DNA of 64,000 nt from assembly GCA_012516785.1 (NCBI GenBank), contig JAAYWH010000073.1:1-64000 (forward strand), written 5' to 3'. The notes below the pieces were generated by a model. It did not search any database and was not told the origin of the DNA. It was given only the letters and a program-made list of their open reading frames with translations. This document shows, piece by piece, positions 2,544-22,850 of this stretch. Each line of letters opens with the position of its first letter. Within the stretch, counting starts at the first letter, position 1. The position numbers and the translations under genes were made by a program. The stretch comes from Methanomicrobiales archaeon (GTDB lineage Archaea; Halobacteriota; Methanomicrobia; Methanomicrobiales; Methanospirillaceae).

Positions 2544-3350
2544 ATGAAGTTTTCATGGATCATTCCCGTAACCGCAGTTTTCCTTGCGGCAATCCTCCTT
2601 ACGGGCTGTACCGGAAACCAGGCGGAACCAGGAAAAACCGAACTTACCGTCTTTGCTGCCGCCTCTCTCACCGGTGCATTGACCGACATGGCAGAGACCT
2701 ATGAGACCAGTCATCCAGGTATCCACGTTGTCCTCAATTTTGATGGTTCGCAAGCATTGAGAACACAGATTGAACAGGGCGCCTATGCTGATGTGTTCCT
2801 CTCAGCCAATACGAAACACCTGTATGCACTCCGTGATCAGGGTCTCATGGAGAACAGCAGCATCGGATTGTTTGCAAAAAACAAGCTGGCAGTCATCACC
2901 CCGGCATCCAACCCCGGGAATATGACGACCCTTGCTGATCTCGCACGCCCTGGCACAAGACTTGTCATCGGTACAAAAGATGTCCCGGTTGGGGACTACG
3001 CCCGGCAGATCCTGAAAAAGATGGGGAACGACTCCACGTATGGCCCCTCCTATACTGCATCGGTCCTTGCCAATGTCATATCCGAAGAGACAACGGTGAC
3101 CGGGGTTGTCACCAAAGTCCAGATCGGTGAAGCAGATGCGGGTATCGTGTATGAATCGGACATTACTCCGGAAAACCGTGACAGGTTCCTGGTTATTACC
3201 ATCCCCGATCAGTACAATGTTATCGCTGAGTACCCGGCAGGGATTGCGGGGTCATCGGCACACAAGGATGAGGCAGCCGGGTTCCTTGCCTACCTGAAAG
3301 GCGAACAGGGCAGGGCGATCCTGGCGAAGTACGGATTCGCGCTCCCCTGA
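2544..3350 (+). CDS. modA: ModA, molybdate/tungstate-binding lipoprotein
   Basis: A 268-residue extracytoplasmic solute-binding protein of the ModA family. A hydrophobic signal segment ends in the lipobox LLTGC, giving a lipid-anchored Cys22. The mature part begins LTVFAAASLTGAL, the classic ModA anion-binding segment, and continues with NFDGSQALRTQIEQGA and ADVFLSAN. It should capture molybdate or tungstate outside the membrane and pass it to ModB. It starts about 25 bases after a TATA box, so it is probably leaderless, and it leads the modABC operon. Confidence 0.93.
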   Translation: MKFSWIIPVTAVFLAAILLTGCTGNQAEPGKTELTVFAAASLTGALTDMAETYETSHPGIHVVLNFDGSQALRTQIEQGAYADVFLSANTKHLYALRDQGLMENSSIGLFAKNKLAVITPASNPGNMTTLADLARPGTRLVIGTKDVPVGDYARQILKKMGNDSTYGPSYTASVLANVISEETTVTGVVTKVQIGEADAGIVYESDITPENRDRFLVITIPDQYNVIAEYPAGIAGSSAHKDEAAGFLAYLKGEQGRAILAKYGFALP

Positions 3351-3363
3351 GCACTGGGATCGG

Positions 3364-4179
3364 ATGATGGGAAGAAGATATTTCCAGGGGAAGAACTCCC
3401 TTTTTCTCACCATCGGGGCAGGGGTACTGATCACCCTGCTCGTTGTTTTTATCATCACTCCGATCCTTGGCCTCTTTTTCCGGATCACCTTCGAACAATT
3501 CCTGGCTTCGCTCTCCGACCTGGTAGTTTGGAATGCTCTTATACTCAGCCTTGTTACTGCCAGTATTTCCACGCTTGTGATCATCCTTGTTGGCACTCCG
3601 GTGGCATGGATCAATGCCCGCCACCAATATCCCGGGCGTGAGATTGTGGATACCTTGATCGACCTCCCGCTGGTGCTTCCTCCGACCGTAGCGGGTCTCG
3701 CCCTTCTCCTGGCATTTGGCAGGATGGGCCTGATCGGGAGTATCTTCTATGATTATGGTATCAGCATCGCCTTCACCACTCTTGCGGTAATCATTGCCCA
3801 GATATTTGTTTCCATACCGTTCTACATCAGGCAGGCTCGTGCGAGTTTCGAGCAGCTTGATCCGATGTACGAACATGCGGCCAAGAGTCTCGGATCCCCC
3901 GCTGTCCCAACCTTTTTCACCGTCATCCTGCCACTTGTGAAAGCAGGCCTGATCGGGGGGGCTATCATGTCCTTTGCACGGGCACTTGGGGAATTTGGTG
4001 CGACCATCATGTTTGCCGGGAATTTCCAGGGCCGGACCCAGACGATGCCCCTCGCCATCTATACGGCCATGCAGGGAGATCTGACTGCCGCTATCACGCT
4101 CTCGGTTATTCTCATCATCATCTCATTTCTCATCATTGCACTCGTAAAATTCAAGCTCAGGGGGTATACAGAACGTTAG
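3364..4179 (+). CDS. modB: ModB, molybdate ABC transporter permease
   Basis: A 271-residue integral membrane protein with about six hydrophobic segments. It has the cytoplasmic EAA-type loop of ABC permeases (YEHAAKSLGSP followed by a long hydrophobic run) and the FARALGEFGATIMFAGN block characteristic of ModB/CysT-type permeases. It lies 13 bp after modA and 2 bp before modC. Adjacent ATG codons at 3364 and 3367 make the exact start ambiguous by one residue. Confidence 0.92.
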   Translation: MMGRRYFQGKNSLFLTIGAGVLITLLVVFIITPILGLFFRITFEQFLASLSDLVVWNALILSLVTASISTLVIILVGTPVAWINARHQYPGREIVDTLIDLPLVLPPTVAGLALLLAFGRMGLIGSIFYDYGISIAFTTLAVIIAQIFVSIPFYIRQARASFEQLDPMYEHAAKSLGSPAVPTFFTVILPLVKAGLIGGAIMSFARALGEFGATIMFAGNFQGRTQTMPLAIYTAMQGDLTAAITLSVILIIISFLIIALVKFKLRGYTER

Positions 4180-4181
4180 AG

Positions 4182-4907
4182 GTGGCGGTCCGGAGGGACC
4201 TGCGGGAGTATCTCCTTGAGGCAGAGTTTACCGTAAGGCAGGGCGAGATCATGGTACTGATTGGAGAGAACGGGTCCGGGAAATCGAGCCTGCTCCATCT
4301 TATCGCCGGACTCCTTCCACCTGGTTCAGGGCATGTAAAGATCGGAGAGCAGGTGCTCTATGACAGCATGAATGGGATCCATGTACCACCCGAATACAGG
4401 GAGATCGGGCTGGTCTTCCAGAACCATGCCGTCTTCCCTCACCTGACCGTCTTTGAGAACATTGCATTTGGCCTGCGGAGAAGAAAGGTACCAGAGCCCG
4501 AGATCCGTGAACGGGTTGGGGAGATCCTCGCCAGAGTCTCTCTCGAAAACCTTTCAGGAGTCCGGGGGGACCAGCTCTCCGGGGGAGAGCGGCAAAGAAC
4601 AGCCCTTGCACGCGCACTTGTCATCTCCCCAACGCTGCTCCTCCTTGACGAGCCAGTCAGTGCCCTTGATGCAGTCGCCCAGGAGCGTATGCGGTCTTAC
4701 CTCCATACGTATGTCAAAACATCCAATATTCCCTGTATTGTCGTGACTCATTCGTTCAGGGATGCTGCATCACTCGGTGACCAGGTGGGGGTCATGGAAA
4801 GAGGCCGGATTATCCAGAATGGAGATCTTGAAGAGATCAGGGGAAATGGAAGTCATTTCCTTCACCAATTTTTTTGTGGGTGCCGGAAGGATTCATGCCA
4901 CTTGTAG
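4182..4907 (+). CDS. modC: ModC, molybdate ABC transporter ATPase lacking the TOBE domain
   Basis: A 241-residue ABC ATPase that starts with GTG two bases after modB. Walker A is GENGSGKSS (residues 28-36), the Q-loop is VFQNHAVFPH, the signature is LSGGERQR and Walker B is LLLLDEPVSALD. Length and content correspond to the nucleotide-binding domain only. The C-terminal TOBE/Mop regulatory domain of longer ModC proteins is absent, while a separate Mop protein is encoded at 1772. The last residues are cysteine-rich (FCGCRKDSCHL). Confidence 0.92.
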   Translation: MAVRRDLREYLLEAEFTVRQGEIMVLIGENGSGKSSLLHLIAGLLPPGSGHVKIGEQVLYDSMNGIHVPPEYREIGLVFQNHAVFPHLTVFENIAFGLRRRKVPEPEIRERVGEILARVSLENLSGVRGDQLSGGERQRTALARALVISPTLLLLDEPVSALDAVAQERMRSYLHTYVKTSNIPCIVVTHSFRDAASLGDQVGVMERGRIIQNGDLEEIRGNGSHFLHQFFCGCRKDSCHL

Positions 4908-6041: not shown

Positions 6042-6082
6042 GGTTTTTTCATCTCCTCATATGATTCGTGCGTCAATCCCAA

Positions 6083-6091
6083 CAAAAAAAA
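6083..6091 (-). terminator. Oligo-T tract after fdhB copy 1
   Basis: Eight A on the plus strand (6084-6091) give a T8 tract on the minus strand directly after the fdhB stop codon. It may end or attenuate the fdhAB transcript before the ferritin-like gene. Confidence 0.45.
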
Positions 6092-7243: not shown

Positions 7244-9298
7244 TTACGCCACCTTCTCAACCTTGACGGCACAGTGCTTGAGTTCAGGCATCTTTGAGAG
7301 AGGGTCAAGGGCGGTATTGGTCAGGTTGTTCACACCCTGGTTGAAGTGCATCGCCATGTACAATACTTTCGGTGCAACGTCTTCTGAGACCCTTGCCTTG
7401 GTGATGGTCTCACCACGGCGACTCGTCACCTTGACCTTGTCCCCTTCCTTGATTCCCAGTTCCTTCGCATCCTGCGTGTTGATCTGGATGTAGGACTCGG
7501 GCACTTCATAATGCAGTTGTTTGGCACGGTCGGTCTGGGTCCTCGTGTGGTAGTGGAAGATCACACGCCCTGTCATCAGCGAGAACGGGTATTGTGAATC
7601 CGCTACTTCCGCAGGTGGCCGGTACTCGAGGCCGAACATGGTACCTTTCCCATCTGCTGCCGAGAACTTTCCGATGTGAAGGATCGGGGTCCCGGGGTGT
7701 TCGATGGTTGGGCAGGGCCAGTGAACTGACTCGGGCTTTTCCATCTTCTCGTACGTTACCCCGAACTGGCCCGGGGTGGTTGCACGCATGTCGTCCCAGA
7801 CGTCCTTGGCACTCTTCCAGTCAAAGCCTTTGAGGCCCATCTTTTTCGCGAGCAAGGAGATGATTTCCCAGTCGTATTTCGACTGCCCGGGTCCGTCAAC
7901 AGCCTTCCTGACACGGTTGCCCCGCCGCTCGCCGCTGGTGAACGTCCCGTCCTTCTCGGCAAAGCAGGTGCCGGGCAGGACAACATCAGCATAATCGCAG
8001 CTCTCGTTCCAGAAGATGTCCTGCATGACGCAGAAGTCGAGTTTCTCAAGCTGCCTCTTGACATGGTTCGAGTCAGGGTAGGAGACCGTCGGGTTCAGGC
8101 CCATGAAATACATTGCCTTGACAACGGAGCCGGCATCGTTGATCTGCTCGGTCAGGGTCGAACCGTACCAGTCAGGGAGTGAACCCTCCTTCAGGTGCCA
8201 GGCCTTCTCATGTTTGGCACGGTTCTCAGGGACTGCAACAGCCTGGTATCCGGCGAAGACGTTCGGATAGGCGCCCATATCGCAGGCACCCTGCACGTTG
8301 TTCTGGCCACGAAGCGGGTTGACCCCTACCCCCGGGCGGCCGATGTTGCCGGTGAGCAGCGAGAGGTTACCCATGGAACGGACATTGTCGGTCCCGGTGG
8401 TGAGTTCGGTGATGCCGAGGCAGTAGATGATGACTGCGTTCTTGGCGTTGGCATACTTGCGGGCAAACTCCTTGACCGTCTCTTGCGGGACCCCGTGGAT
8501 ATTCGTGGCATCGGCATACTTCTGGACCATTGCTTTGAGGTCATCGAAGCCTTTCGTCCGCTCCGCGATGAACTCCTTGTCCTCGAGGCCTTCCTTGATG
8601 ATGTAGTACATCATGTTGTTGGCGAGCGCGATGTGGGTTGACGGGTTGAACCGGATCCACTGGTCGGCAAGGCGTGCCGTTGCACTGTAGCGCGGGTCGA
8701 CCACGACAATTGGGATACCCTTCTTCTTGGCCTGCATGACGCGGCGGCCGGCAAGCGGGTGGGCCTCTACTGCATTGGAGCCCCACATCACAATCAGGTC
8801 AGAATTCAGGACGTCTTCGAACGGATTTGTGGCTGCACCGGAGCCAAAGGAGAGCGAGAGCCCTGCGACGGATGGTCCGTGGCAGATACGGGCGCAGTTG
8901 TCAACGTTGTTGGTCAGGAATGCACACCGTGCAAACTTCTGTAAAGCGTAGCAGTCCTCGTTGACGGTACGGCAGGACGTCTGGAAACCAAGCGCCTTGG
9001 GGCCGTGCTTTTTATAGACCTCCGTGAACTTCTTGACGATCAGGTCAAGGGCTTCATCCCAGGAAGCATCCACGAACTTTCCGTTCTTCTTGATCTTCGG
9101 TGTCGTGAGCCGGTCGGGGCTCTGGACATGTTCCCAGCAGGTCATTCCCTTGGGACAGAGCTTGCCTTCATTGATCGGAGACCGCTTATAGGGCTCTACT
9201 CCTACCAGCTTTCCATCGCTGACAACAAGGTTGAGTCCACAGCCGACCCCACAATACGGGCAGGTGGTTGGTACATACTTCAATGCTTCATTACTCAT
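7244..9298 (-). CDS. fdhA: FdhA, formate dehydrogenase catalytic subunit (copy 1)
   Basis: A 684-residue Mo/W-bis-MGD oxidoreductase that oxidises formate to CO2. The N-terminal [4Fe-4S] ligands are CPYCGVGC (Cys13, 16, 20) plus Cys48 in KLCPKG. The catalytic segment VDNCARICHGPSVAG carries cysteine (about residue 139) where some relatives have selenocysteine, followed by the conserved histidine. No in-frame UGA is present. ATG 9298 is preferred over ATG 9304 because the GGGGG ribosome-binding run directly abuts 9304. It faces away from an FmdE-like gene across a promoter region containing a palindrome. Confidence 0.95.
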   Translation of the reverse strand: MSNEALKYVPTTCPYCGVGCGLNLVVSDGKLVGVEPYKRSPINEGKLCPKGMTCWEHVQSPDRLTTPKIKKNGKFVDASWDEALDLIVKKFTEVYKKHGPKALGFQTSCRTVNEDCYALQKFARCAFLTNNVDNCARICHGPSVAGLSLSFGSGAATNPFEDVLNSDLIVMWGSNAVEAHPLAGRRVMQAKKKGIPIVVVDPRYSATARLADQWIRFNPSTHIALANNMMYYIIKEGLEDKEFIAERTKGFDDLKAMVQKYADATNIHGVPQETVKEFARKYANAKNAVIIYCLGITELTTGTDNVRSMGNLSLLTGNIGRPGVGVNPLRGQNNVQGACDMGAYPNVFAGYQAVAVPENRAKHEKAWHLKEGSLPDWYGSTLTEQINDAGSVVKAMYFMGLNPTVSYPDSNHVKRQLEKLDFCVMQDIFWNESCDYADVVLPGTCFAEKDGTFTSGERRGNRVRKAVDGPGQSKYDWEIISLLAKKMGLKGFDWKSAKDVWDDMRATTPGQFGVTYEKMEKPESVHWPCPTIEHPGTPILHIGKFSAADGKGTMFGLEYRPPAEVADSQYPFSLMTGRVIFHYHTRTQTDRAKQLHYEVPESYIQINTQDAKELGIKEGDKVKVTSRRGETITKARVSEDVAPKVLYMAMHFNQGVNNLTNTALDPLSKMPELKHCAVKVEKVA

Positions 9299-9346
9299 AT
9301 TCATCCCCCTGTAACGGAGACATCCGGCGGAAAATCCGGACTTCTG

Positions 9347-9369
9347 ATTAACTAGTGTTTATAGTTAAT
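9347..9369. promoter_or_regulatory. Palindrome upstream of fdhA copy 1
   Basis: ATTAACTA (9347-9354) and TAGTTAAT (9362-9369) form a perfect 8-bp inverted repeat separated by 7 bases. It lies 49 bp before the fdhA ATG and just downstream of an AT-rich TATA-like stretch (about 9383-9396, minus strand). The position would overlap the start of transcription, as expected for an archaeal repressor site. The cognate regulator is unknown. Confidence 0.5.
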
Positions 9370-9502
9370 GACTCAAACTTCATGTTATTTAAATATTAAT
9401 AAATTTAGTTTATTTGTAAATATTCATTGATTAACCTGTTATGGAACAACAAAGAAAGGGAACCTGCACAATCCTTATAAAAGCCGGCATCATTCGCTTT
9501 TC

Positions 9503-10144
9503 ATGCAGTTTCCGAGCCACTCCCGCGCGTCCACCGAAATGCGGGAGAGCATGGACGCCTATGGAATCAGTCCTGCGCTTCAAGAACAGTTTACCCGGTG
9601 CAGCAGTTTTCACACGGTGACGGCACCCGGCCTCTTTATCGGTGTCTTCATGGTGGACTACGCACTTGAGCTCCTTGGCGCCCGCCACGGCGAGAAACTT
9701 TACGCTGTTGCTGAGACTTATAAGTGTATTCCCGATCCCATACAGGTTATGGCGGGCTGTACCTTTGGAAATCACCGCCTCCAGGTGGTCCCGATTGGAA
9801 AATTTGCCCTTACGATGAACCGGCCTTCTGAAAAATATGCGATCGAAGGGGTGCGTGTCTATGTGAATGCCGAAAAGTTGAAAAAATTCCGGATTATCAA
9901 CGCATGGTATACCCATAGTCCCGGGTTTGACAGTGGGACAATGATCTACCCGCTAATCGATGAAATCCTGAAAGCCGGCCGTGATATCCTCTCATACCAA
10001 CGGGTTATCGTCAGGGTGCCCCCAAAGAGTTCGTGGAAGTCAGTCAAGTGCAACGACTGCGGAGAGATGGTCCCTGATATTGCCCTGGAAGGGGATCACT
10101 GCAAGGGGTGCGGTTCACAGTCTTATTATGAAGTCCTCTCGTGA
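9503..10144 (+). CDS. FmdE-family protein with C-terminal zinc ribbon (copy 1)
   Basis: A 213-residue protein of the FmdE family, named after a gene in formylmethanofuran dehydrogenase operons. The N-terminal domain has FHTVTAPGLFIGVFMVDYAL and the GCTFGNHRLQVVPIGKFAL segment. The C-terminus is a zinc ribbon, CNDCGEMVP then CKGCG. Function is unproven; a role in Mo/W cofactor handling is suspected. A TATA box (CTTATAAAAG, about 9473-9482) lies about 25 bases before the ATG, supporting a leaderless start. It is divergent from fdhA copy 1, and a paralogue stands in the same place beside fdhA copy 2. Confidence 0.85.
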   Translation: MQFPSHSRASTEMRESMDAYGISPALQEQFTRCSSFHTVTAPGLFIGVFMVDYALELLGARHGEKLYAVAETYKCIPDPIQVMAGCTFGNHRLQVVPIGKFALTMNRPSEKYAIEGVRVYVNAEKLKKFRIINAWYTHSPGFDSGTMIYPLIDEILKAGRDILSYQRVIVRVPPKSSWKSVKCNDCGEMVPDIALEGDHCKGCGSQSYYEVLS

Positions 10145-10264
10145 AAATGGAGGAGCCTGATCGGGAGCATAAGCAACACTTTATTATTACAATTTCGCAG
10201 ATTTTTCAATTATCTTCTTGAATCGTAAGATTAACGTGATTTTAGATGATGAATGGGGGTATTC

Positions 10265-10275
10265 TCAAAAAAAAG
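10265..10275 (-). terminator. Oligo-T tract after fdhB copy 2
   Basis: Eight A on the plus strand (10267-10274) give T8 on the minus strand about 18 bases after the fdhB copy 2 stop, a plausible intrinsic terminator. Confidence 0.5.
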
Positions 10276-10292
10276 AATTGAGTGGAATGCCA

Positions 10293-11528
10293 TTATTTGA
10301 ATATATCAAAGATCTGGTCACTTCCGGTCGCTGCAAGCCGGTCACGCTCTTCACGCTCTTCGACAAGCGCAAGGAGAGGCAGCGACATATCAACACCCGG
10401 GACATGCCCGAACATCTTCTCGAGCTCGACCTGCTGGGCATGCATGAACAATGCATTCGGAATATCCATCGCACAGAGTTCCTGGCACTGGCCGCAGTTT
10501 ATGCATGAGTCGGCGATGTGTGCGAACCGGATGAGGTGGAACATGAAATTCGGCGGGACTTCCCCAGGTTTTACAAGATATGGTTTCTTCGTGCTGCATT
10601 CAACGCAGTAGCAGATCGGGCAGTTCTCAATGCAGGCATAACACTTGATGCACCGCGAGGTCTCCTTCACGATCTTCTTGAGACGTTCTCTTCCCTCCCC
10701 CAGGCCTTCAAAGTCCTTCTTCCGCCACTTGTCACTGAGTTTGTACATCGCGTTCTCGACTTTGGCCCGAATCTCAAGACCCTTCGGATTTGGAGCCTCG
10801 GTCTTGATCCTGCCGTCCTTGACCGCCCTGTCCAGGAGGTCGGCTCCCTTGGTACTGCAGACCTCGACAAACGTTGCTTTCCCGGCCTTGTCCCCGATGA
10901 CACCCCAGTTTCCACAGGCAAGGTCTGCCTGGCGAGTCACCTTCAACTTGCACCGGCGGCAGTTGCTCCTCCGCCCATAACCCTGCTCTTCGAGTTCATC
11001 GATGGAGATGCCCTTGTGGCCTCCCTCGTACTCGATGATGAACTGGCCCTTGTCGATCTCTTCCTTGTGGACCGTGTCTGGGTCCACTCCGAACTTTTCG
11101 GCGATCATCTTCCGGGCTGTGACCGGGGAGACCGTGCCCCCGCAGTTCACCCCGATCATGATGATATTGTCAAGGTTAACCTGCTGGCGCTTCGCCAGCT
11201 CGTAGAGCCCCATCATGTCACATCCCTTGACCGTCATTGCGATCTTCTGGGTGCCAGCGCCGTCTAAGTATTTCTTGACAAGCTTGGACAGAAGGAGTGT
11301 TCCACAATGGAGCGACCCTGCGGTTTTATCAATATCTTTCGGATCGGTGATGATCACCGGGACCGCATCGTAGAGATCCTGCCCCCTCGTGACGGCAAAA
11401 ACTCCATCGACAATCTTCTTCTCGAGCGCATACTTCAGAAGGCCGCTCACCGCTCCCCCGCACTCCGCCTTCTTTGCGAGGTCAGCATCGGTGGTCCATG
11501 CATAATACATGTCACCTTTCTTTGACAT
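10293..11528 (-). CDS. fdhB: FdhB, F420-reducing formate dehydrogenase beta subunit (copy 2)
   Basis: A 411-residue paralogue of the FdhB at 6092. It shares GYGRRSNCRRCK, ACGNWGVIGDKAG and both ferredoxin-like clusters (CIKCYACIENCPIC and CINCGQCQELC), and carries a longer C-terminal tail. ATG 11528 is chosen by analogy with copy 1 (MSKKGDM). A GTG at 11534 overlaps the fdhA stop as GTGA and is an alternative start two codons longer. It should accept electrons from FdhA copy 2. Confidence 0.94.
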   Translation of the reverse strand: MSKKGDMYYAWTTDADLAKKAECGGAVSGLLKYALEKKIVDGVFAVTRGQDLYDAVPVIITDPKDIDKTAGSLHCGTLLLSKLVKKYLDGAGTQKIAMTVKGCDMMGLYELAKRQQVNLDNIIMIGVNCGGTVSPVTARKMIAEKFGVDPDTVHKEEIDKGQFIIEYEGGHKGISIDELEEQGYGRRSNCRRCKLKVTRQADLACGNWGVIGDKAGKATFVEVCSTKGADLLDRAVKDGRIKTEAPNPKGLEIRAKVENAMYKLSDKWRKKDFEGLGEGRERLKKIVKETSRCIKCYACIENCPICYCVECSTKKPYLVKPGEVPPNFMFHLIRFAHIADSCINCGQCQELCAMDIPNALFMHAQQVELEKMFGHVPGVDMSLPLLALVEEREERDRLAATGSDQIFDIFK

Positions 11529-11530
11529 GC

Positions 11531-13603
11531 TCACTTCGCCTCCGCGATCTTCTCAACAGCAACGGCACAGTGCTTCAGCTCGGGCATCTTGGACATCGGA
11601 TCAAGGGCCGTGTTGGTGAGGTTGTTTGCACCATTCGGGAAGTGCATGGCCATGTAGAGCACACCAGGGGCTACTTCATCCGTAACCCGGGCAAGTGGCG
11701 TGGTCTCTCCCCTGCGGCTGCGTACCTTGATATGGTCACCCTCTTTGATCCCGAGTCTCTTCGCATCATCGGTATTGATCTGGACGAAGTTCTCTGGCAC
11801 CTCGTAATGGAGCACCTTTGCACGGTCGGTCTGGGTCCTCGTGTGGTAATGGAAGATCAACCGTCCGGTCATCAGGGTAAACGGGTATTCCGCATCTGCT
11901 ACCTCAGCGGGTGGGCGATACTCGATACCAAAGAAGGTGCCAAGGCCGTCAGGTGAAGCAAATTTCTCCTTGTGCAGGATAGGTGTCCCGGGGTGTTCAA
12001 CAGTCGGGCAAGGCCAGTGGACAGATCCTGGGATGTCGATCCGTGCATTGGTAGCACCGAACATGGACGGAGTGACCGACCGCATGTCATCCCAGATTTG
12101 CTGGGGTGACTTGAAGTCGAATCCTTTCAGCCCAAGTTTCTTTGCTAGCAGTACAAAAATCTCCCAGTCCTCCTTTGCCTCGCCAGGGGGATTGACAGCC
12201 TTCCTGACACGGTTGATCCGCCGTTCTCCGCTGGTGAACGTCCCATCCTTCTCCGCAAAGGATGCTCCGGGAAGGACTACGTCCGCATACTCGCAGGTCT
12301 CGGTGAAGAAGATATCCTGTACGACCAGGAAGTCGAGCTTATCGAGAGATCGTTTCACGTGGTTCGAGTCCGGGTAGGAGACTGCCGGATTCAGGGCGAA
12401 GATATACATTGCCTTGATGGGATCGCCACACTGGGAGATCTGCTCAGTCAGGGTCGACCCGTACCACTCCGGCAGCGATCCGGCCGGCATGCCCCAGGCC
12501 TCCTCCATCTTCTTCCGCATCTCCGGGAGCTCGCACTTCTGGTAGCCTGAATAGACATTCGGATAGGCACCCATGTCGCAGGCACCCTGCACGTTGTTCT
12601 GGCCACGGAGGGGATTGACACCGACACCAGGGCGCCCGATATTCCCGCAGAGCATCGAGAGGTTCCCGAGCGACCGGACGTTGTCGGTCCCGGTGGTGAG
12701 TTCGGTGATGCCAAGGCAGTAGATAATGACACCATTCTTTGCAGCGGCGTACTTCCGTGCCATGTCCTTCACCGTCTCAACAGGAACCCCGGTGATCTTC
12801 TCAACATCCGCGTAGTTCTCGACGGTCTTTTTCAGGTCCTCGAATCCCTTCGTCCGCTTCTCGATAAATTCCTTGTCGTGGAGGTTCTCCTTGATGATCC
12901 AGTACATCATTGAGTTGATAAGGGCGATATGGGTCGAGGGATTGAACCGGATCCATGTATCCGCGAGCCGTGCGGTCGGGCTGTACCTGGGATCGACAAC
13001 CATGATGGGGATACCCTTCAGCTTCGCCTGTGCAATCCGCCGGCCTGCAAGCGGGTGTGCTTCCACCGCATTCGAACCCCATACAAGTATGAAATCGGAA
13101 TTGAGGACATCCTCGAACGGATTTGTCGCCGCTCCGGATCCAAACGAAAGCGAGAGTCCTGCGACTGAAGGGCCGTGGCAGATTCGGGCGCAGTTGTCGA
13201 CATTGTTGGTTTTGAATCCCACCCGGGCAAGTTTCTGCATGATGTAGCACTCTTCATTCGGTGTCCTGCAGGAAACCTGGAATCCGATGGATTTCGGACC
13301 GTTTTTATCCGATATCTCCTTGAATTTCGTAGCTACCAAGTCAAGGGCTTCGTCCCAGCTCGCCTCTTCGAACTTCCCGTTCTTCTTGATCAACGGTTTG
13401 GTCAACCGGTCGGGGCTGTGGATGAACTCCCAGCAGGTCATACCTTTTGGGCAGAGCTTGCCCTCGTTGATCGGACTTCGCTGCCAGGGGGCTACACCAA
13501 CTGCTTTCCCATCTTTGACGATGAGGTTCAGCCCGCACCCTACTCCACAGTAGGGGCATGTTGTGGGCACGTATTTCAGGGTTTCTGGTTTGGCATTAGT
13601 CAT
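11531..13603 (-). CDS. fdhA: FdhA, formate dehydrogenase catalytic subunit (copy 2)
   Basis: A 690-residue paralogue of the FdhA at 7244 with the same CPYCGVGC iron-sulfur motif and VDNCARICHGPS active-site cysteine. The start is set at ATG 13603 (MTNAKPETLKYV), which matches copy 1. A longer frame from TTG 13657 adds a leader with no family support. A TATA-like element (TTTATATTTTAAAT, minus strand, about 13682-13697) would leave a short untranslated leader. The two copies may differ in metal use or expression. Confidence 0.95.
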   Translation of the reverse strand: MTNAKPETLKYVPTTCPYCGVGCGLNLIVKDGKAVGVAPWQRSPINEGKLCPKGMTCWEFIHSPDRLTKPLIKKNGKFEEASWDEALDLVATKFKEISDKNGPKSIGFQVSCRTPNEECYIMQKLARVGFKTNNVDNCARICHGPSVAGLSLSFGSGAATNPFEDVLNSDFILVWGSNAVEAHPLAGRRIAQAKLKGIPIMVVDPRYSPTARLADTWIRFNPSTHIALINSMMYWIIKENLHDKEFIEKRTKGFEDLKKTVENYADVEKITGVPVETVKDMARKYAAAKNGVIIYCLGITELTTGTDNVRSLGNLSMLCGNIGRPGVGVNPLRGQNNVQGACDMGAYPNVYSGYQKCELPEMRKKMEEAWGMPAGSLPEWYGSTLTEQISQCGDPIKAMYIFALNPAVSYPDSNHVKRSLDKLDFLVVQDIFFTETCEYADVVLPGASFAEKDGTFTSGERRINRVRKAVNPPGEAKEDWEIFVLLAKKLGLKGFDFKSPQQIWDDMRSVTPSMFGATNARIDIPGSVHWPCPTVEHPGTPILHKEKFASPDGLGTFFGIEYRPPAEVADAEYPFTLMTGRLIFHYHTRTQTDRAKVLHYEVPENFVQINTDDAKRLGIKEGDHIKVRSRRGETTPLARVTDEVAPGVLYMAMHFPNGANNLTNTALDPMSKMPELKHCAVAVEKIAEAK

Positions 13604-13787
13604 AGAAATCGTTCCGGAAATCTTGATTCCTGGGGTCCTCGATAAATTGTTGTACAATAGAATAAGCAGGGCTTGAAGGTATTTAAAATATAAACAATTA
13701 TAATTAACAATTTGCCAACTTAATTAAATATTATTTATTAACCCTGCTGCGGTATGTGGTATTACATTGGAAAACGCGCAAATTTGT

Positions 13788-13809
13788 TCATATCATATGA
13801 TTGATATGA
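13788..13809. promoter_or_regulatory. Palindrome upstream of FmdE-like copy 2
   Basis: TCATATCA (13788-13795) and TGATATGA (13802-13809) form a perfect 8-bp inverted repeat with a 6-base spacer. It ends 27 bp before the ATG of the FmdE-like gene and directly upstream of an AATAATAATAAGATAATAAAG stretch that could serve as the basal promoter. Confidence 0.45.
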
Positions 13810-13836
13810 CAATAATAATAAGATAATAAAGTTATC

Positions 13837-14481
13837 ATGTCAGAAATTGGGAGCGAGATACAATCCCTGATGGACGCTCACGCCATCTCACCGCGTTTAC
13901 AGGACTATTTCAAGCGTTGCATCGAATTCCATACCTATCCGGCACCCGGGCTCCTTATCGGAGTCTTCATGGTCGACTATGCAGTTGAGGAACTTGGTGC
14001 AACTCCCGGAGAAAAATTGTATTCAGTCTGCGAAACTCAGAAATGTGCCCCAGATCCCCTGCAGGTCATCCTCCATTGCACCTCAGGGAACCACCGGCTT
14101 CGGATCATTCCTATGGGCAGATTTGCATTGACCCTGAACCGTCCCTCCACAGAACCCTTCACGGATGGTATCAGAATCTTTATCGATCCCGGGAAATTGG
14201 AAAAGTGTCCCCTCATCAAGGCTTGGTTTTCCAACGACCCTGCGTTCAATCAGAGGGCAAAGGCAGTACCCCTGATCGATGAGATATTCAGGGCAGGTCG
14301 TGATATCCTCTCTACTGAAAAAGTCCGTGTGAAGGTGACTCCCAAGCAGCAGTGGCAATCGGGAAAATGCCGTGTCTGTGGAGAGTTGGTTCCTTCTGAC
14401 CTGCTGGATAAGGGGGTCTGCATTGGCTGTGGCCCGAATGCGTATTATCAAAAAGATCTAAGCTCTTCACAGCGGCAATAA
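13837..14481 (+). CDS. FmdE-family protein with C-terminal zinc ribbon (copy 2)
   Basis: A 214-residue paralogue of the protein at 9503. It has FHTYPAPGLLIGVFMVDYAV, the HCTSGNHRLRIIPMGRFAL segment and a C-terminal CRVCGELVP...CIGCG zinc ribbon. It is divergent from fdhA copy 2, repeating the arrangement of the first cassette. The repeated pairing suggests a function tied to formate dehydrogenase rather than only to formylmethanofuran dehydrogenase, which is inference. Confidence 0.85.
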   Translation: MSEIGSEIQSLMDAHAISPRLQDYFKRCIEFHTYPAPGLLIGVFMVDYAVEELGATPGEKLYSVCETQKCAPDPLQVILHCTSGNHRLRIIPMGRFALTLNRPSTEPFTDGIRIFIDPGKLEKCPLIKAWFSNDPAFNQRAKAVPLIDEIFRAGRDILSTEKVRVKVTPKQQWQSGKCRVCGELVPSDLLDKGVCIGCGPNAYYQKDLSSSQRQ

Positions 14482-14947: not shown

Positions 14948-15428
14948 TAGCTATCAATGGAACATTAGCGCGAGGATCTCATCTGGGATGCACTCGGATT
15001 CCACGGAGAATATTGTCCAACCTCTGCAGGTGCGGTGAGGTGATGATACCTGATCTCCGATGGTTGGGGGGTGATCTCGCAGGAGATGAGATCACCTGTA
15101 GTCTGGGACCCGATCCCTGGATTAATGACACTCTTAGGTGGGGCCTCAGGGGCAAGTCTGTAAACAGACGGCTCATCATATCTGAAGGCTGGGCTGGGAA
15201 AACCAGTTTACCGGCAATCAGACCGTGGAACATCACTCGAATTCCGGGATATAGTTATACCGTCTGATAATGCTTCCGTACATTACCCATCTGCCAGTGA
15301 CTAATTCTCCCTGAAGGTTAATAATAAATAATTTACATATCAAACCAGTAAACATTGAATACCTTTCAGTACGGATCCGGGACGATGTTCCATGCCTGTG
15401 AACCCATAGCCCACCATGAAGGTTGGAG
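14948..15428. other. Non-coding stretch before the moeA-like gene
   Basis: No credible gene is seen; open frames here are short and lack family signals. It contains the inverted repeat at 15070-15096 and a smaller GTCTG/CAGAC stem near 15155-15168. An AT-rich segment (AATAATAAATAATTTA, about 15320-15336) may be the promoter of the moeA-like gene. Confidence 0.5.
15070..15096. repeat. 9-bp inverted repeat
   Basis: GGTGATCTC (15070-15078) and GAGATCACC (15088-15096) are perfect inverted repeats with a 9-base spacer. They lie mid-intergenic between the trmO pseudogene and the moeA-like gene. The role is unknown. Confidence 0.4.
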
Positions 15429-17333
15429 ATGATGAAGAAGCGTTACCTTACCCTCCAGACCCTTGATGATGCCCTCACCATGATGAAGACGGCTTTTCCT
15501 CTATCAGGAGGATCCATGACCATCCCCATCACCGAAGCGGAAGGCAGGGTTGCATCGGAACCGATCTTTGCCCGGTATACCGTCCCGGATTCTTTTATTG
15601 CAGAAATGGATGGCATTGCGGTCAAGAGCAGCTCCACCGTAGGGGCAGGGGAACAGCGTCCCGTCACACTCACCGACTTTCTCAGGGTTGATACGGGGAA
15701 TATGATCCCTACGGAATACGATGCAGTTATCATGATCGAGGATGTCTGCCTTGCGGGGTCCTCCTGTATTGTACGGAAAGCAGCCCGGCCTGGGCAGCAT
15801 ATCCGTCCTCCCGGCCAGGATATCCGGAAAGGAGACCAGATCATCCCCCGGGGTCACCAGATCCGTTCCTCTGATATCAGTGCCCTCGCAACCTATGGGT
15901 ATGATACCGTTGCGGTAAGAATCGTCCGTGTTGGTATTCTCCCCACTGGCAATGAGCTTGTTCCGATCGGAACGGTGCCAGGACCTGGCCAGGTGATCGA
16001 GACGAACAGCGTCTTTGCCGCCTCGTTCCTCTCCCGCCTCGGCGCTCTCTGCACAACCTATCCGCTCGTGCGTGATAATCCTGTTCAGATTACACAGGCA
16101 CTGGAAAAGGCGGTCCTGGAAAATGATCTTGTACTCATATCCTCAGGGACCTCGGCGGGAAGGCATGATTATTCGGCTCAGATCATCAGGAATATTGGAA
16201 GACTCCTCTTCCACGGAGTTGCGATTTTGCCGGGAAAACCAGCAATACTCGGTGAAATCCAGGGAAAACCGGTGGTGGGATTACCCGGATATCCTGTGGG
16301 CTCCCAGACCGTGCTTCGCGAGATCGTTGCGCCGTTCCTCGTCTCGTGGGGGCTTGCCCCCCTTCCCCACTGGATTATCCGAGGAAGGCTTGCACGGGAT
16401 ATGCCCTCTGATCTAGGGTTCGATGAATATGTACCGGTATCGGCTGGAGCAGTCAACGGGACGTCCTGGATCTTTCCCCATCCCCGCGGTTCAGGCCTCC
16501 AGATGAACCTGGTCCGGGCGAACGGCTATCTTCATATCCCGCTTGCCAGCGAGGGATGGGAGGCCGGTGCATGGGTTGATATCCATTGCACCACCCTTCC
16601 CCACCAGATTGACCGCACCCTTCTTTGTATAGGGGCAAAAAATCCTGGTATCCGGCAACTCGCCTATGCCCTTGCGGACCGTTCTGTCATGTTGCAAACT
16701 TTTGATGACCTCTCTTCGCGGGCGCTCCTTGCACTCCGGAAAAATTCCTGTCATCTTGTTGCCCTTACTATTCCGGATCTATATGGGGACATCGGAGCAA
16801 GGTATGCATGGAACGATACTCATGCCGTCGTTATTCATCTTGGCAAGATGCCGGTCGGTATCGTCTCGCATACCAGTGCAGGGAGTGCCGACCTTGATCA
16901 TCTTCGGGTGGTACATTCTCCCAAAGGTTCAACCGGAAGAATTCTGATTGACAGGCTGATTGCTGCAAAGAAAATTGGTCATGACCAGATTGTAATGAAC
17001 AGCAATGCGGTAAAAACGGAGCATGCAGTGATATCGGCGGTGAAAACCGGTATTGCGGATGTAGGAATCAGCTCGGCAGTCCTTGCAAAGGAAGCAGGAC
17101 TGGCGTTTGTTCCCCTCACCCATGAATTCCATGTTCTGGTAGCCCGGAAGGAGTCACTTGAGGATGAGAGAATACAAGTCCTCCTGCAGATTGTCCAGTC
17201 TCCGGAATTCACGCGTTCTCTTGAGGAATGGTATACTACGGCTTGTACCGGAAAGGTCGAGGAATGTACCGCTGACTCCTTCCAGGGAAATGCTTTATTC
17301 CGGGATGGGGTTGTCGATCCTGGAACAGAATAA
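15429..17333 (+). CDS. moeA: MoeA-type molybdopterin molybdenumtransferase fused to a periplasmic-binding-like domain
   Basis: A protein of about 634 residues. The first 400 or so are MoeA, which inserts molybdate or tungstate into adenylylated molybdopterin. Motifs are EMDGIAVKS, ISSGTSAGRHDYS and GLPGYPVGSQ. The last 220 form a PBP-like (LysR substrate-domain type) module with SAGSADLDHLRVV and FVPLTHEFHVLVARKE, an architecture seen in some archaeal and bacterial MoeA proteins; that domain may sense the ligand. The open frame begins at TTG 15423, but ATG 15429 (or 15432) is the likelier start, with AAGGT a few bases before it. Confidence 0.88.
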   Translation: MMKKRYLTLQTLDDALTMMKTAFPLSGGSMTIPITEAEGRVASEPIFARYTVPDSFIAEMDGIAVKSSSTVGAGEQRPVTLTDFLRVDTGNMIPTEYDAVIMIEDVCLAGSSCIVRKAARPGQHIRPPGQDIRKGDQIIPRGHQIRSSDISALATYGYDTVAVRIVRVGILPTGNELVPIGTVPGPGQVIETNSVFAASFLSRLGALCTTYPLVRDNPVQITQALEKAVLENDLVLISSGTSAGRHDYSAQIIRNIGRLLFHGVAILPGKPAILGEIQGKPVVGLPGYPVGSQTVLREIVAPFLVSWGLAPLPHWIIRGRLARDMPSDLGFDEYVPVSAGAVNGTSWIFPHPRGSGLQMNLVRANGYLHIPLASEGWEAGAWVDIHCTTLPHQIDRTLLCIGAKNPGIRQLAYALADRSVMLQTFDDLSSRALLALRKNSCHLVALTIPDLYGDIGARYAWNDTHAVVIHLGKMPVGIVSHTSAGSADLDHLRVVHSPKGSTGRILIDRLIAAKKIGHDQIVMNSNAVKTEHAVISAVKTGIADVGISSAVLAKEAGLAFVPLTHEFHVLVARKESLEDERIQVLLQIVQSPEFTRSLEEWYTTACTGKVEECTADSFQGNALFRDGVVDPGTE

Positions 17334-17790: not shown

Positions 17791-17805
17791 CCTATGGGAG
17801 TCTGC

Positions 17806-18618
17806 ATGAAGCGGGATCGGTTTGAAGTCACTAACAAGCTCCAGGGAGAGTCACTGGTACGGAAAGGCTTGCTGAAGGCATACGAGGGCAGGAGCCAGCT
17901 CCGGATGATGCCCGATCTGAACGTGGTAAAGATCGGAGGCCATGGTATCATCGATTACGGGAAAGAGGTGCTCCTGCCGCTTCTGACCGAGATCGGGGAG
18001 CTTTCACGTGAGAACCAGATCCTTGTGGTCACGGGCGGAGGAGTGAGAGTGCGTCATATCCTTGACCTCGGCCTTGACCTCGGGTTGCCGACCGGTGTCC
18101 TTGCAGAGCTTGCCGGGAAGATCAGTGAGCAGAATGCGATCATGGTATCAATCCTGCTCTCGAAATACCACGGGACGCGGATCCATACCGGGGACCTTCT
18201 CGAACTCCCCATGCTGATGAACCTGGGCGTCCTCCCGGTCATCCATGGGACGCCTCCCTATGGTTTATATGAGCAGCCCGCCCACATCGGCTCGATTCCC
18301 CCAAACCGCACCGATACAGGGGCGTTCCTTGCCGCAGAGGTACTTGGCGCAAAGAACCTCATCCTCGTGAAGAATGTGGATGGCTTGTTCACAGCAAATC
18401 CGTTCACTGATACCACAGCCGAGATCATCCCGGATATCACTGCAGCAGAGCTCCTGGCAATGGAGATGGAGGACATGGTTCTTGAGCCGAGAGTGGTCGA
18501 GCTGATGATGAATGCCAAACATGTGCATGAAGTCAAGATCATCAACGGCCATGAGCCAGGGAATCTCCGTCGCGCCATTGCAGGCGAGCGAATCGGTACG
18601 GTAATCCGCGCAGTATGA
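17806..18618 (+). CDS. Molybdenum/tungsten storage protein (MoSto)-like amino acid kinase family protein
   Basis: A 270-residue protein of the amino-acid/UMP-kinase fold, closest by eye to the MosA/MosB subunits of the Azotobacter molybdenum storage protein. It shares VVKIGG, VTGGGVRVRH, GLDLGLPTGVLAELA, PPNRTDTGAFLAAEVLGA, NVDGLFTANP and the C-terminal GHEPGNLRRAI and RIGTVIRA. MoSto uses ATP to pack polyoxomolybdate or tungstate clusters. Length also fits (270-276 residues). ATG 17806 is chosen over 17794 because the TATA box lies about 23 bases before it. The next gene, 25 bp downstream, is a MOT1-type transporter, which strongly supports a metal-oxyanion role over UMP kinase. Confidence 0.85.
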   Translation: MKRDRFEVTNKLQGESLVRKGLLKAYEGRSQLRMMPDLNVVKIGGHGIIDYGKEVLLPLLTEIGELSRENQILVVTGGGVRVRHILDLGLDLGLPTGVLAELAGKISEQNAIMVSILLSKYHGTRIHTGDLLELPMLMNLGVLPVIHGTPPYGLYEQPAHIGSIPPNRTDTGAFLAAEVLGAKNLILVKNVDGLFTANPFTDTTAEIIPDITAAELLAMEMEDMVLEPRVVELMMNAKHVHEVKIINGHEPGNLRRAIAGERIGTVIRAV

Positions 18619-18643: not shown

Positions 18644-19765
18644 ATGCCCCAGGATTCCAAACCCCCACTCAGGTTTGGTATCGGTGAGCTGGCAGGCAGC
18701 CTTGGTGATTTCGGGACCATCCTTCCCCTCTCTCTCGCGCTTGCCGCGACTGGCGCCCTCGGGATAGGGCCGGTCCTCCTTTTTCTGGGCATCTGGTTCA
18801 TCATCACCGGGTATTATTACCGGTACCCGGTCCCCGTTGAGCCCATGAAGGCCATTGCCGTCATTGCGGTCGCAGCCGGGATGTCGGGAGGGGAGATCGC
18901 TGCTGCCGGGTATATCCTCGGGGCCATTTTCCTCCTCATCGGTTTCACCAATGTTCTTGAAATAATTGAACGGTATATCCCACTGCCTGTAGTCCGGGGT
19001 ATCCAGCTGGGGCTGGCCCTTATCCTCCTCAAAACAGCAGTGGGATACCTCATTCCTGATCCAGGGCATTTCTTCCTGGGGGCAATGATCATCATTGGAG
19101 GATTCCTGGTGGCATACCACTTTCGTGTTCCGGATCTCTCCTCAATTGCGGTCATCATCGTTGCGATTGCGGCCGGTATCCTTGCACAGGGATTCCCTCC
19201 GATAACCACACTTTCCCTCTCCCCTGGTGCAATTCCTACTGGATCAGAGATAATTGCGTCACTCCGGGAGCTAGTCCTCCCCCAGGCTATCCTTACCATC
19301 ACCAATGCCATTCTCGCAACGTCATTGCTCGCTAAAGACCTGTTTTCAGCTGATATCCGCCCAAAAAAGCTCTCCAAAACAATTGGTCTCATGAATCTCA
19401 CATCGATTCCGTTCGGGGGGATGCCTATGTGCCACGGTGCCGGTGGGATGGCCGGCCAGTACCGGTTCGGGGCAAGAACCGGTGGTGCAAACATCTATGC
19501 CGGAATCTTCCTTATCGGGGCTGCCCTTCTTTTTGCAAGCACCGCATGGGTCGGTCTGATCGCCCCTGGTTTCTATGCTGCCCTCCTCATCTTTGTCGCG
19601 ATAGAACTGGCGAGGCACGGATTAAAGACCAGCTCATACCTCGTGACCTTCACTACTGCGGTTCTGTCGTTACTCGTCTCGATGACGGTAGCATTCATCG
19701 TGGGAATGTGCCTTGCATACGGTGTCCCCTCTCTCATGAAACAGATCGGAGAAAAAAGCAGGTGA
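18644..19765 (+). CDS. MOT1-family molybdate (tungstate) transporter
   Basis: A 373-residue protein with about ten hydrophobic segments. It carries the two signature blocks of MOT1-type high-affinity molybdate transporters, a SulP-related group. The first is GELAGSLGDFGTILPLSLAL followed by PVEPMKAIAVIA. The second is GGMPMCHGAGGMAGQYRFGA. It probably moves molybdate or tungstate across the membrane. It follows the MoSto-like gene by 25 bp in the same direction, so import and storage appear coupled in one operon. This route is separate from modABC. Confidence 0.87.
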   Translation: MPQDSKPPLRFGIGELAGSLGDFGTILPLSLALAATGALGIGPVLLFLGIWFIITGYYYRYPVPVEPMKAIAVIAVAAGMSGGEIAAAGYILGAIFLLIGFTNVLEIIERYIPLPVVRGIQLGLALILLKTAVGYLIPDPGHFFLGAMIIIGGFLVAYHFRVPDLSSIAVIIVAIAAGILAQGFPPITTLSLSPGAIPTGSEIIASLRELVLPQAILTITNAILATSLLAKDLFSADIRPKKLSKTIGLMNLTSIPFGGMPMCHGAGGMAGQYRFGARTGGANIYAGIFLIGAALLFASTAWVGLIAPGFYAALLIFVAIELARHGLKTSSYLVTFTTAVLSLLVSMTVAFIVGMCLAYGVPSLMKQIGEKSR

Positions 19766-20813: not shown

Positions 20814-22757
20814 CTAGGCCATCACCACACCGCTCTCTTTTAATGCTGCGGGGACGTTGCCGTAGCCGAGTGCCGGGTCAATGACCTCCTGCCCGTCAGC
20901 AGTGAGGATATCCTGGCCGGTCTGGCTTACGAGGATCTTGATATATTCAAGTCCAAGGTCGGGGTTCCGTGCATTCTTCGGCACGGTAACCGCGTAGATG
21001 ATCGGGGTTCCGGTCTCGGTTGCCGTGGTGGTTCCGCTGATCCGCTTCACCTTGACAGTTGCATACGAATCGGCGTATTCCTGGGAAGAGAGATCCATTC
21101 CCACCGGGAGTTCGATATACGGCAGACCGTTCTGGATCGCCACGCTGCTGTATTCGATCGCGTAGTCAGCCTTGCCTTCCTTCAGGATGGTGACCACGTC
21201 AGGACCGGATTTCCCTATCACGAGCTTTCCATCGGGGGTGGGCTTGGTGACATCGATCGTGTACTTTCCGTCAGCAAACGTCCTGGTCATCTTGCTGTGG
21301 GCACCGAGGAGGCTGGAGAAGATCGTATCTACGCCATACACCCGTTCTGCGAGTTGGATCGACATAACCGCACGGTAGCCTGCCGGGTCAGTGTTGGGAT
21401 CGCTGATCACGTACTTGACGTCCGGGGTGTTGAGGATCTCGTACCAGTTATCAGGAGTGATTTCATCGTTATACTTGCTCTGGTTGGTATACACCACGAC
21501 CATGTGGTTCTTTGCAAACGTGACATAATAGTCAGCGTAGGTCGGGTACATCAGGGTCGGGATGAGGTAGGCATCGGCTGAGGCAAGCACATCGGCCTTC
21601 TTGCCCTGTTTTGTGATCTTCTCTATCATGGTGACGCTCCCTCCACCGAAGAGCTGGGCGTCGACCAGCGGGAACTGGCTCTCGTATACCGTTTCAATCT
21701 TTGCGAAAGGCGCATTGAGGCTTCCGGCATTAAAGACGGTCATCGGTTCGATTGCGGTTGCTTCCCCTGTGCAGACACAGTTGAACCGGCTGCAGTTGCC
21801 GTTCATCGCGGAGAAGAGGTTCTTCCCGTACTTCTCTTTTCCATAGTTGTCGATATCGGCCTGCGTCTCCGGTGAGATCATGAAGTTGACGAAGTTGTTC
21901 GCCATCTCGATCTTCTCTGTTGTCGTTTTGTCGTTGTAGACCGTGATCACGGAATACACGTTGAGGAGGATAGCGCCTTCACTCACGAGAGGTTCCAGTT
22001 CGAGATCGCCCTGGTAGGCCAGGTACGTCCCTTCATCGGTCAGAGTGTAGGCCCCTTTCTCGGACGCGAGCTGAAGTGTCTCGCCCATCCCTCTGCCAGC
22101 CTCGATATACCAGTTGCCCGATTTCTGGACATCCTTGGTATAGTTGAACTTTGCAGAAGCCCAGACGGCCTTTTCAGCCGAGTGAGTACCGGAATTGTCA
22201 CCACGCGAAACGAACATCACACCCGGGGTGTTTGCCTTCCCTTTGGTGAGAATAGTGGTGAATGCCTGCTCGGGGGTCATCCCTTTTATACCGGCGGGAT
22301 CGCTGGGTGGCCCGACGATAATGAAGTAGTTGTAGGCAAAGCAGCGGCGGTTCAGCCCAGCCCCATCCTCCATGTAGGCGACCTCCTGTGCGGGTGAGTG
22401 GACGGCGAGGATATCGCAGTCGCCTTTCTTAGCAACTTCAATGGCTTTCCCGGTCCCCTGTGAGGTGATCAGGAGTTCGGCGTTATACTTCTCCTCAAAC
22501 TTTGGTTTCAGGTAGTCAAGGAGCCCGGTATCATAGAGGCTCGTCGTGGTTGCAAGGAGTACCTTTGTTTTCGGCCCGACAGGAGTTGTTGGAACGGTGG
22601 TCGGTACGGCAGTTGCATTACCCGTCTCACTGGGGGTGGGGGTCACGGTAGGAGTACCGGCGCCCGGTTCGCTGGTCGTGCATCCTGCAAATACTGCAAA
22701 ACCAACGACCAGGAGAGAGAGGATTATGAAAATGCTGAGATGTTTCTTCAATGTCAT
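20814..22757 (-). CDS. Fused TupA-like and WtpA-like tungstate/molybdate-binding lipoprotein
   Basis: A 647-residue secreted lipoprotein. The signal segment ends in VFAGC (Cys26), followed by a Thr/Pro-rich linker to about residue 62. Residues ~63-330 are TupA-like: LLATTTSLYDTGLLD, ITSQGTGKAIEVAKKGDCD and RGDNSGTHSAE. A short linker with three cysteines leads to a WtpA/ModA-like domain (from ~337): TVFNAGSLNAPF, GGGSVTMIEKIT, GKKADVLASADAYLIP and YADYYVTFAKN. Each domain alone normally serves an ABC importer. No permease or ATPase lies next to it; modBC at 3.4-4.9 kb are the only candidates in view. A palindrome precedes the gene. Confidence 0.88.
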   Translation of the reverse strand: MTLKKHLSIFIILSLLVVGFAVFAGCTTSEPGAGTPTVTPTPSETGNATAVPTTVPTTPVGPKTKVLLATTTSLYDTGLLDYLKPKFEEKYNAELLITSQGTGKAIEVAKKGDCDILAVHSPAQEVAYMEDGAGLNRRCFAYNYFIIVGPPSDPAGIKGMTPEQAFTTILTKGKANTPGVMFVSRGDNSGTHSAEKAVWASAKFNYTKDVQKSGNWYIEAGRGMGETLQLASEKGAYTLTDEGTYLAYQGDLELEPLVSEGAILLNVYSVITVYNDKTTTEKIEMANNFVNFMISPETQADIDNYGKEKYGKNLFSAMNGNCSRFNCVCTGEATAIEPMTVFNAGSLNAPFAKIETVYESQFPLVDAQLFGGGSVTMIEKITKQGKKADVLASADAYLIPTLMYPTYADYYVTFAKNHMVVVYTNQSKYNDEITPDNWYEILNTPDVKYVISDPNTDPAGYRAVMSIQLAERVYGVDTIFSSLLGAHSKMTRTFADGKYTIDVTKPTPDGKLVIGKSGPDVVTILKEGKADYAIEYSSVAIQNGLPYIELPVGMDLSSQEYADSYATVKVKRISGTTTATETGTPIIYAVTVPKNARNPDLGLEYIKILVSQTGQDILTADGQEVIDPALGYGNVPAALKESGVVMA

Positions 22758-22818
22758 AGGCGTTCGGGATAACTATTCGATTGGAAATAAATGAATATTG
22801 TTATTTTTCACCTTCGAT

Positions 22819-22850
22819 TAACCAGTTGTATTACCAACTGGTTATACCAG
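22819..22850. promoter_or_regulatory. Operator-like palindrome upstream of the TupA-WtpA fusion gene
   Basis: TAACCAGTTG (22819-22828) and CAACTGGTTA (22835-22844) form a perfect 10-bp inverted repeat with a 6-base spacer. A further overlapping CTGGT-TAT-ACCAG element extends to 22850. The element is about 60 bp before the start codon and upstream of a TATA-like CATTTATTT (minus strand). It shares the 12-mer TACCAACTGGTT with the MoSto promoter. Confidence 0.65.

Follow-up and report, generated by a model that had tools for sequence, protein, structure and literature searches.

How tungsten and molybdenum are told apart at the cell surface is a standing question, and TupA and WtpA count among its textbook answers. 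The two proteins ordinarily serve different importers, as the original prediction for the locus described here correctly held. In AfModA, we take D153 and E218 to be the two carboxylate ligands of the octahedral coordination. For TupA of DaG20, the published account gives the ligand residues as a TTTS motif together with H59, R118, T124 and D170, and reports Kd values of 6.3 pM (W) and 6.1 nM (Mo) (PMC5517513). GlnPQ of Lactococcus lactis has tandem binding domains on a single chain that differ in specificity, are joined by short flexible linkers and can function next to each other (PMC8025302).

In the current study, we analyzed a stretch of 64,000 nucleotides from a Methanomicrobiales archaeon (contig JAAYWH010000073.1, hereafter the window), on whose minus strand a single gene (20814..22757) encodes a lipoprotein that combines two domains, one TupA-like and the other WtpA-like. 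The gene is one open frame of 647 aa plus a stop, with zero internal stops. It begins with a signal peptide whose lipobox (FAGC26) was recognized by eye (residues 1 to 26; 22680..22757, minus strand), followed by a Thr/Pro-rich tether evident from the sequence (residues 27 to 60; 22578..22679, minus strand), the TupA-like domain (residues 61 to 316; 21810..22577, minus strand), a linker (residues 317 to 337; 21747..21809, minus strand) and the WtpA-like domain (residues 338 to 647; 20817..21746, minus strand), which has AGSL at 344, GGGSV at 371, D457 and E535. Unlike WtpA and archaeal ModA, the C-terminal half has no signal peptide of its own.

Profile and structure-database matches confirmed the predicted identity of both halves. 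The N-terminal half matched Pfam PBP_like_2 (positions 61 to 297, E 7e-38) and the TupA structures 5my5 from Desulfovibrio alaskensis (E 5.4e-55) and 3lr1 from Geobacter (E 1.1e-47); against the NCBIfam TupA model NF041772 (positions 64 to 315) it scored 175.8 bits, under the equivalog cut-off of 400, as did the fusions of two relatives (191.6 and 192.3 bits). The C-terminal half matched Pfam SBP_bac_11 (positions 340 to 622, E 2.1e-39) and passed the WtpA model TIGR03730 (positions 339 to 609; 309 bits, cut-off 242.75), falling short of the cut-off of 355 for the WtpA model NF003196 (positions 330 to 642, 333.8 bits). Its best solved structure was MA_0280 (PDB 3k6u, E 2.5e-82). AlphaFold2, applied to the window protein and eight relatives, was uninformative (mean pLDDT 47, pTM 0.32). 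The single-chain lipoprotein, as originally predicted, is real.

In an alignment, all of the TupA ligand residues were present in the window fusion, as T70-T72, S73, H120, R185, T191 and D241. They were kept in 30 of 30 fusions (29 of 30 for the H59 position) and in all 26 solo TupA rows. The cysteine-bearing linker noted in the original prediction also exists (C322, C327 and C329), but its cysteines were not made by the fusion, as 13 of the 26 solo TupA rows finish in an identical CxxxxCxC pattern. By this match, the linker equates to the C-terminal tail native to solo TupA.

The candidate second site, in the WtpA-like half, is less uniform. D457 stands at the AfModA D153 position, which is kept in 30 of 30 fusions. 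The AfModA 218 position is Gly in the window fusion, and an acid, E535, stands at position 235; an acid is found at position 235 in 24 of the 28 WtpA rows of the alignment (W rows, two of which are contig-cut fusions). We had considered that the C-terminal half might have lost its second acid (AfModA E218), an idea rejected once the alignment placed an acid at position 235. E535 is a plausible second carboxylate, which would make position 235 a candidate metal ligand. E235 is kept in 20 of 30 fusions and is lost in the g16 genomes and in G128, G127, G133 and G197. As a side observation, WtpA sites seem to carry their second acid in one of two arrangements, E218 with I235 or, in most other W rows, S218 with E235. 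Two charge-changing differences set the fusions apart. At position 79, all 30 fusions have K, where 24 of 28 W rows have E or D; at position 215, R is found in 26 of 28 W rows but in just 1 of 30 fusions.

The same fusion was found at full length in 29 of the order's 232 genomes; five more copies are cut by contig ends (G004, G126, G005, G216 and G125), giving 34 fusion genomes. The class-level sample consisted of the same 232 genomes. All carriers belong to the window's family (f1) except G004 and G005 (f2). Two of them, G197 and G140, are single-contig genomes, the latter 98% complete. Six named MAG records (L006-L011) carry the fusion as well; the named relatives are Methanoregulaceae, Methanoregula and Methanolinea MAGs and one labelled Euryarchaeota, at 73 to 94% identity. 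In a phylum sample of 392 genomes, none outside the order spanned both halves in the TupA-WtpA order among the matches listed, and none of the 154 plasmid records with some match covered 80% of the query. Apparent unfused TupA-WtpA neighbours in G023 and G028 were rejected; they are TupA read on in frame towards TupB. A solo TupA occurs in addition in 5 of the 34 fusion genomes, and no further TupA was found in the window genome (89.9% complete). In the seven genomes of group g8, nothing but the fusion matches TupA or WtpA, and TupB is present. We found no report of a TupA-WtpA fusion among the titles and abstract beginnings searched, which leave subscription literature mostly uncovered; two surveys of TupA and WtpA make no mention of one in the parts covered (PMC6147048, PMC11733289).

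Purifying selection acts on both halves. Of eight close pairs tried, the one involving G148 was unusable for the TupA half; in the remaining seven, some with dS of about 1 or above, dN/dS (NG86) was 0.019 to 0.079 for the TupA half and 0.030 to 0.051 for the WtpA half. In the same pairwise comparison, the tether and the interdomain linker were the least conserved segments. Phylogenetically the two halves behave differently. The solo rows are a sample of the order (26 TupA and 26 WtpA), and in a C-domain tree that leaves out AfModA, the incomplete W_G411 and G126, 32 C-halves form one clade (SH-aLRT 100) apart from the 26 solo WtpA rows. When the order was scanned with the window C-half, the top 21 places were taken by fusion genes or contig-cut fusions. 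The C-half therefore appears, in the sampled tree, to be a WtpA-derived subfamily seen only joined to TupA. The N-halves are intermixed with solo TupA, with seven state changes of which at least three are forced, and a single clade of fusion N-halves was rejected (p-AU 0.001, or 0.009 without the two long rows F_G133 and F_G185; T_G183, at a contig edge, and DaTupA were left out, and T_G125, also at a contig edge, was counted as a fusion). Since the fusion N-halves are not one clade, some lineages can dispense with the C-half. The simplest history is that the two halves were joined once and that the C-half was then lost several times; recombination is a possible alternative.

A possible parallel in reverse order comes from G245, a genome of another order of the phylum. 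Here, a 728-aa WtpA-TupA fusion (L150 15052-17238, minus strand; WtpA 436.9 bits, above the cut-off; TupA 199.9 bits) has TupB and TupC next to it. A second, 704-aa protein on the same contig (L150 6045-8159, minus strand) joins WtpA to ModA (443.1 and 98.3 bits, both above cut-off) and lies between WtpBC and ModB-like genes. In the tree, both WtpA halves fall among solo WtpA and not in the fusion clade. They are 99.3% identical to each other over 1071 nt, as either a recent duplication or a misassembly might produce. Fusion of WtpA with a further oxyanion-binding domain may have arisen more than once, a suggestion drawn from one G245 contig with a near-identical repeat of about 1.07 kb.

Which importer does the fusion serve? 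The original prediction noted that no permease or ATPase is adjacent, and this holds inside the window; in relatives, TupBC adjoins the fusion. Using a TupB query, we found a TupB-like permease in 32 of the 34 fusion genomes, the two misses being genomes only 65% and 80% complete. In 20 of the 34, TupB lies within about 1.5 kb of the fusion, downstream or divergent. It is downstream in the same direction in 12 (directly so in G189, G135, G139, G140, G137, G134, G138, G141, G133, G004 and G005, and with a solo TupA between fusion and TupB in G178), head-to-head in seven (G213, G215, G219, G214, G217, G218 and G197) and 1.4 kb away with MOT1 between in G160. TupB is farther off on the same contig in G225 (4 kb), G146 (19 kb) and G221 (21 kb), and on a separate contig in 9 of the 34. 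Two gene clusters beside the fusion in g16 and G197 (clusters 15 and 26) were discarded; by the TupB coordinates, they are antisense shadow ORFs of TupBC.

In the window genome itself, TupB is encoded on contig C88 (bases 345-1028). This permease scored 242.4 bits against ABC_perm1 (above cut-off), 153 bits against TupB (below the cut-off of 320) and 39.6 bits against WtpB. G221 and G229 both contain counterparts of the first part of C88 and of the first part of the window, separated by a gap of about 150 bp. The most likely position of tupBC is therefore about 0.5 kb to the left of window base 1, on the far side of ModABC and some 20 kb away from the fusion gene, a link made by synteny and not by contig. 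In G222, of the same genus, a solo TupA occupies the fusion's syntenic place beside MOT1 and a kinase-like gene, with TupBC downstream. The distant importer that had been proposed as one option is thus likely to be TupBC, just past the left end of the window. Taken together, TupBC is very probably the transport partner of the fusion.

A conserved palindrome, a candidate operator, lies upstream of the fusion gene (22818..22850, minus strand). Its sequence, CTGGTATAAyCArTTGrTAATACAAyTGrTTAA, stands about 60 to 95 bp upstream of the fusion start, is kept ahead of the fusion in seven g1/g10 genomes and recurs in weaker form upstream of solo TupA in G144. Within the loci scanned, it is confined to tupA and fusion genes; a scan rejected the notion of a wider regulon within the window. 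Rfam gave zero matches on the window. Beside tupBC, many relatives conserve a small protein (about 120 aa; L086 11831-12202 and relatives) that by eye is probably a regulator of the winged-helix kind; it had no Pfam match.

Other genes of molybdenum and tungsten metabolism surround the fusion. About 3.5 kb away is a gene for MoeA with a C-terminal PBP_like domain, identified through Pfam (15423..17333, plus strand); the archaeal MoeA1-PBP type, and a co-occurrence with TupA in bacteria, are reported in an earlier survey (PMC11733289). Next come a homologue of the molybdenum storage protein MoSto beta (17794..18618, plus strand; 2ogx_B, E 7e-62) and a MOT1-type molybdate transporter (18644..19765, plus strand; PF16983, 3e-46), which possibly form a Mo/W storage and uptake island. 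We observed that the MoSto beta-like gene and MOT1 recur near the fusion or TupBC in many relatives. By eye, the same Mo/W island also holds (5580-14481) two pairs of genes for formate dehydrogenase alpha and beta subunits, as well as two genes resembling FmdE, of which the second alone was profile-scanned.

The reading that we favor, with a probability of roughly 60%, is that the fusion is the binding lipoprotein of TupBC and carries a second oxyanion-binding domain for two-site capture. The lipoprotein would be anchored in the membrane via C26. Its membrane-proximal TupA half, as its complete TupA site suggests, would bind tungstate and presumably dock on TupB. The membrane-distal WtpA-like half would be a second, chemically different oxyanion trap, raising the capture of scarce WO4/MoO4 and holding cargo near the importer, in the manner of the two GlnPQ domains, and it might then hand this cargo on. 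The pairing with TupBC is the most certain step of this reading. The capture-and-deliver role of the WtpA-like half is the least certain step, for which we regard the odds as even. Several observations count against the favored reading. Where a solo TupA is present as well (5 of 34 genomes), the fusion may not be the main binding protein of TupBC; TupB is on another contig in 9 of 34; the E235 acid is lost in some fusions; the N-halves are not one clade, the C-half being dispensable in places; the link to C88 is syntenic; and in G146 and G148 (only these, among the loci mapped) the fusion stands just upstream of a wtp operon.

That last arrangement speaks for a bispecific shuttle, a single lipoprotein that would load two importers by docking on TupBC through its TupA half and on WtpBC through its WtpA-like half. 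WtpB (at least 49% identity to the WtpB query) is indeed present in 15 of the 34 fusion genomes, including that of the window (contig C38), and the WtpA-ModA protein of G245 sits between WtpBC and ModBC-like genes. However, WtpB was undetected in the other 19, which include the whole of g8 (seven genomes) as well as G140 with its single contig, and it is about as common in the order overall (105 of 232 genomes), so there is no association of the fusion with WtpB. The window genome, G146 and G148 moreover retain an ordinary WtpA besides the fusion, and the C-halves have fixed the charge changes described above (K79 and the loss of R215). The fusion neither requires nor replaces WtpBC, although its position in G146 and G148 speaks to the contrary, and we consider the shuttle unlikely. 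As an aside, three genes recur upstream of wtpABC (L011 11842-14331, L072 8183-10445, L083 8925-11277, and also C38 of the window genome), one of which matches the molybdopterin-binding oxidoreductase domain PF00174.

Two further alternatives give the WtpA-like half a part in selectivity. It is improbable, in our estimation, that the C-half is a new WtpA-derived subfamily serving only as the cis partner of TupA, a metal discriminator that, as a second oxyanion site with its own coordination chemistry, decides whether W or Mo reaches TupBC. Nor do we give much credence to a WtpA-like half that retains bound molybdate (or tungstate) and in this way preserves the selectivity of the TupA half or signals occupancy. 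Such a role would fit a C-half that forms a separate clade, never solo in the tree, with a variable second-ligand position and fixed charge-changing substitutions, in a genome that also has a dedicated molybdate importer and MOT1. On the other hand, no signalling partner was seen, and TupA alone is already strongly selective, as the Kd values reported for DaG20 TupA indicate (6.3 pM for W versus 6.1 nM for Mo; PMC5517513).

The remaining alternatives fare poorly. A surface trap or scavenger without any transporter, one of the roles originally proposed, would suit the lack of a neighbouring permease in the window and the three g2 genomes (G128, G127 and G126) in which the neighbour of the fusion is CorA and TupB lies elsewhere, but the presence of TupB in nearly all fusion genomes, and its closeness in 20, makes this very unlikely. 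The proposal that the fusion supplies ModBC, which lies 3.4 kb in from the left end of the window, is highly improbable: the ModABC importer genes do lie in the same window (2544..4907, plus strand; ModA and ModB by profile, ModC by eye), but they include their own ModA (TIGR01256, 161 bits, cut-off 62.5), the fusion is next to ModBC in no relative among the loci mapped, and six of the seven g8 genomes keep the fusion with no ModB/WtpB-like permease match at E 1e-8 (G134 alone has one). An assembly or frame artefact joining two genes can be dismissed, as no support for one was found beyond the draft state of the window genome (122 contigs), the frame has no stop, dN/dS is low in both halves, and the full-length fusion recurs in 29 genomes, in the six named MAG records and in the two single-contig genomes.

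How, then, does the favored TupBC lipoprotein compare with described systems? Set against TupA of TupABC (D. alaskensis G20, 5my5; Geobacter, 3lr1), the N-half is of the same family with its ligand residues intact, and in relatives of the window genome the TupBC genes are likewise adjacent; the differences are the added second binding domain and a score of 175.8 bits against a cut-off of 400. Set against WtpA and archaeal ModA (Methanosarcina acetivorans MA_0280, Archaeoglobus fulgidus AF_0094; 3k6u, 2onk), the C-half passes TIGR03730, keeps the D153 position and has an acid at 235, whereas it falls in its own clade outside the 26 solo WtpA rows, carries K79, lacks R215 and is associated with TupBC, not WtpBC. 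The archaeal MoeA1-PBP is likewise a W/Mo protein extended by a PBP domain of the oxyanion type, but MoeA1 is a cytoplasmic biosynthetic enzyme and the fusion is an importer binding protein (PMC11733289). As in GlnPQ, two substrate-binding domains share one chain; those of GlnPQ are fused to the permease, whereas the fusion is a lipoprotein with a separate TupB gene. Moreover, the tandem domains of GlnPQ belong to one family, while the fusion joins two different oxyanion-binding families. With both sites in one conserved protein that is kept in genomes lacking WtpBC, discrimination between W and Mo becomes testable in a single molecule, and the tandem binding-domain principle extends beyond permease-fused domains to unrelated ones carried by a free lipoprotein.
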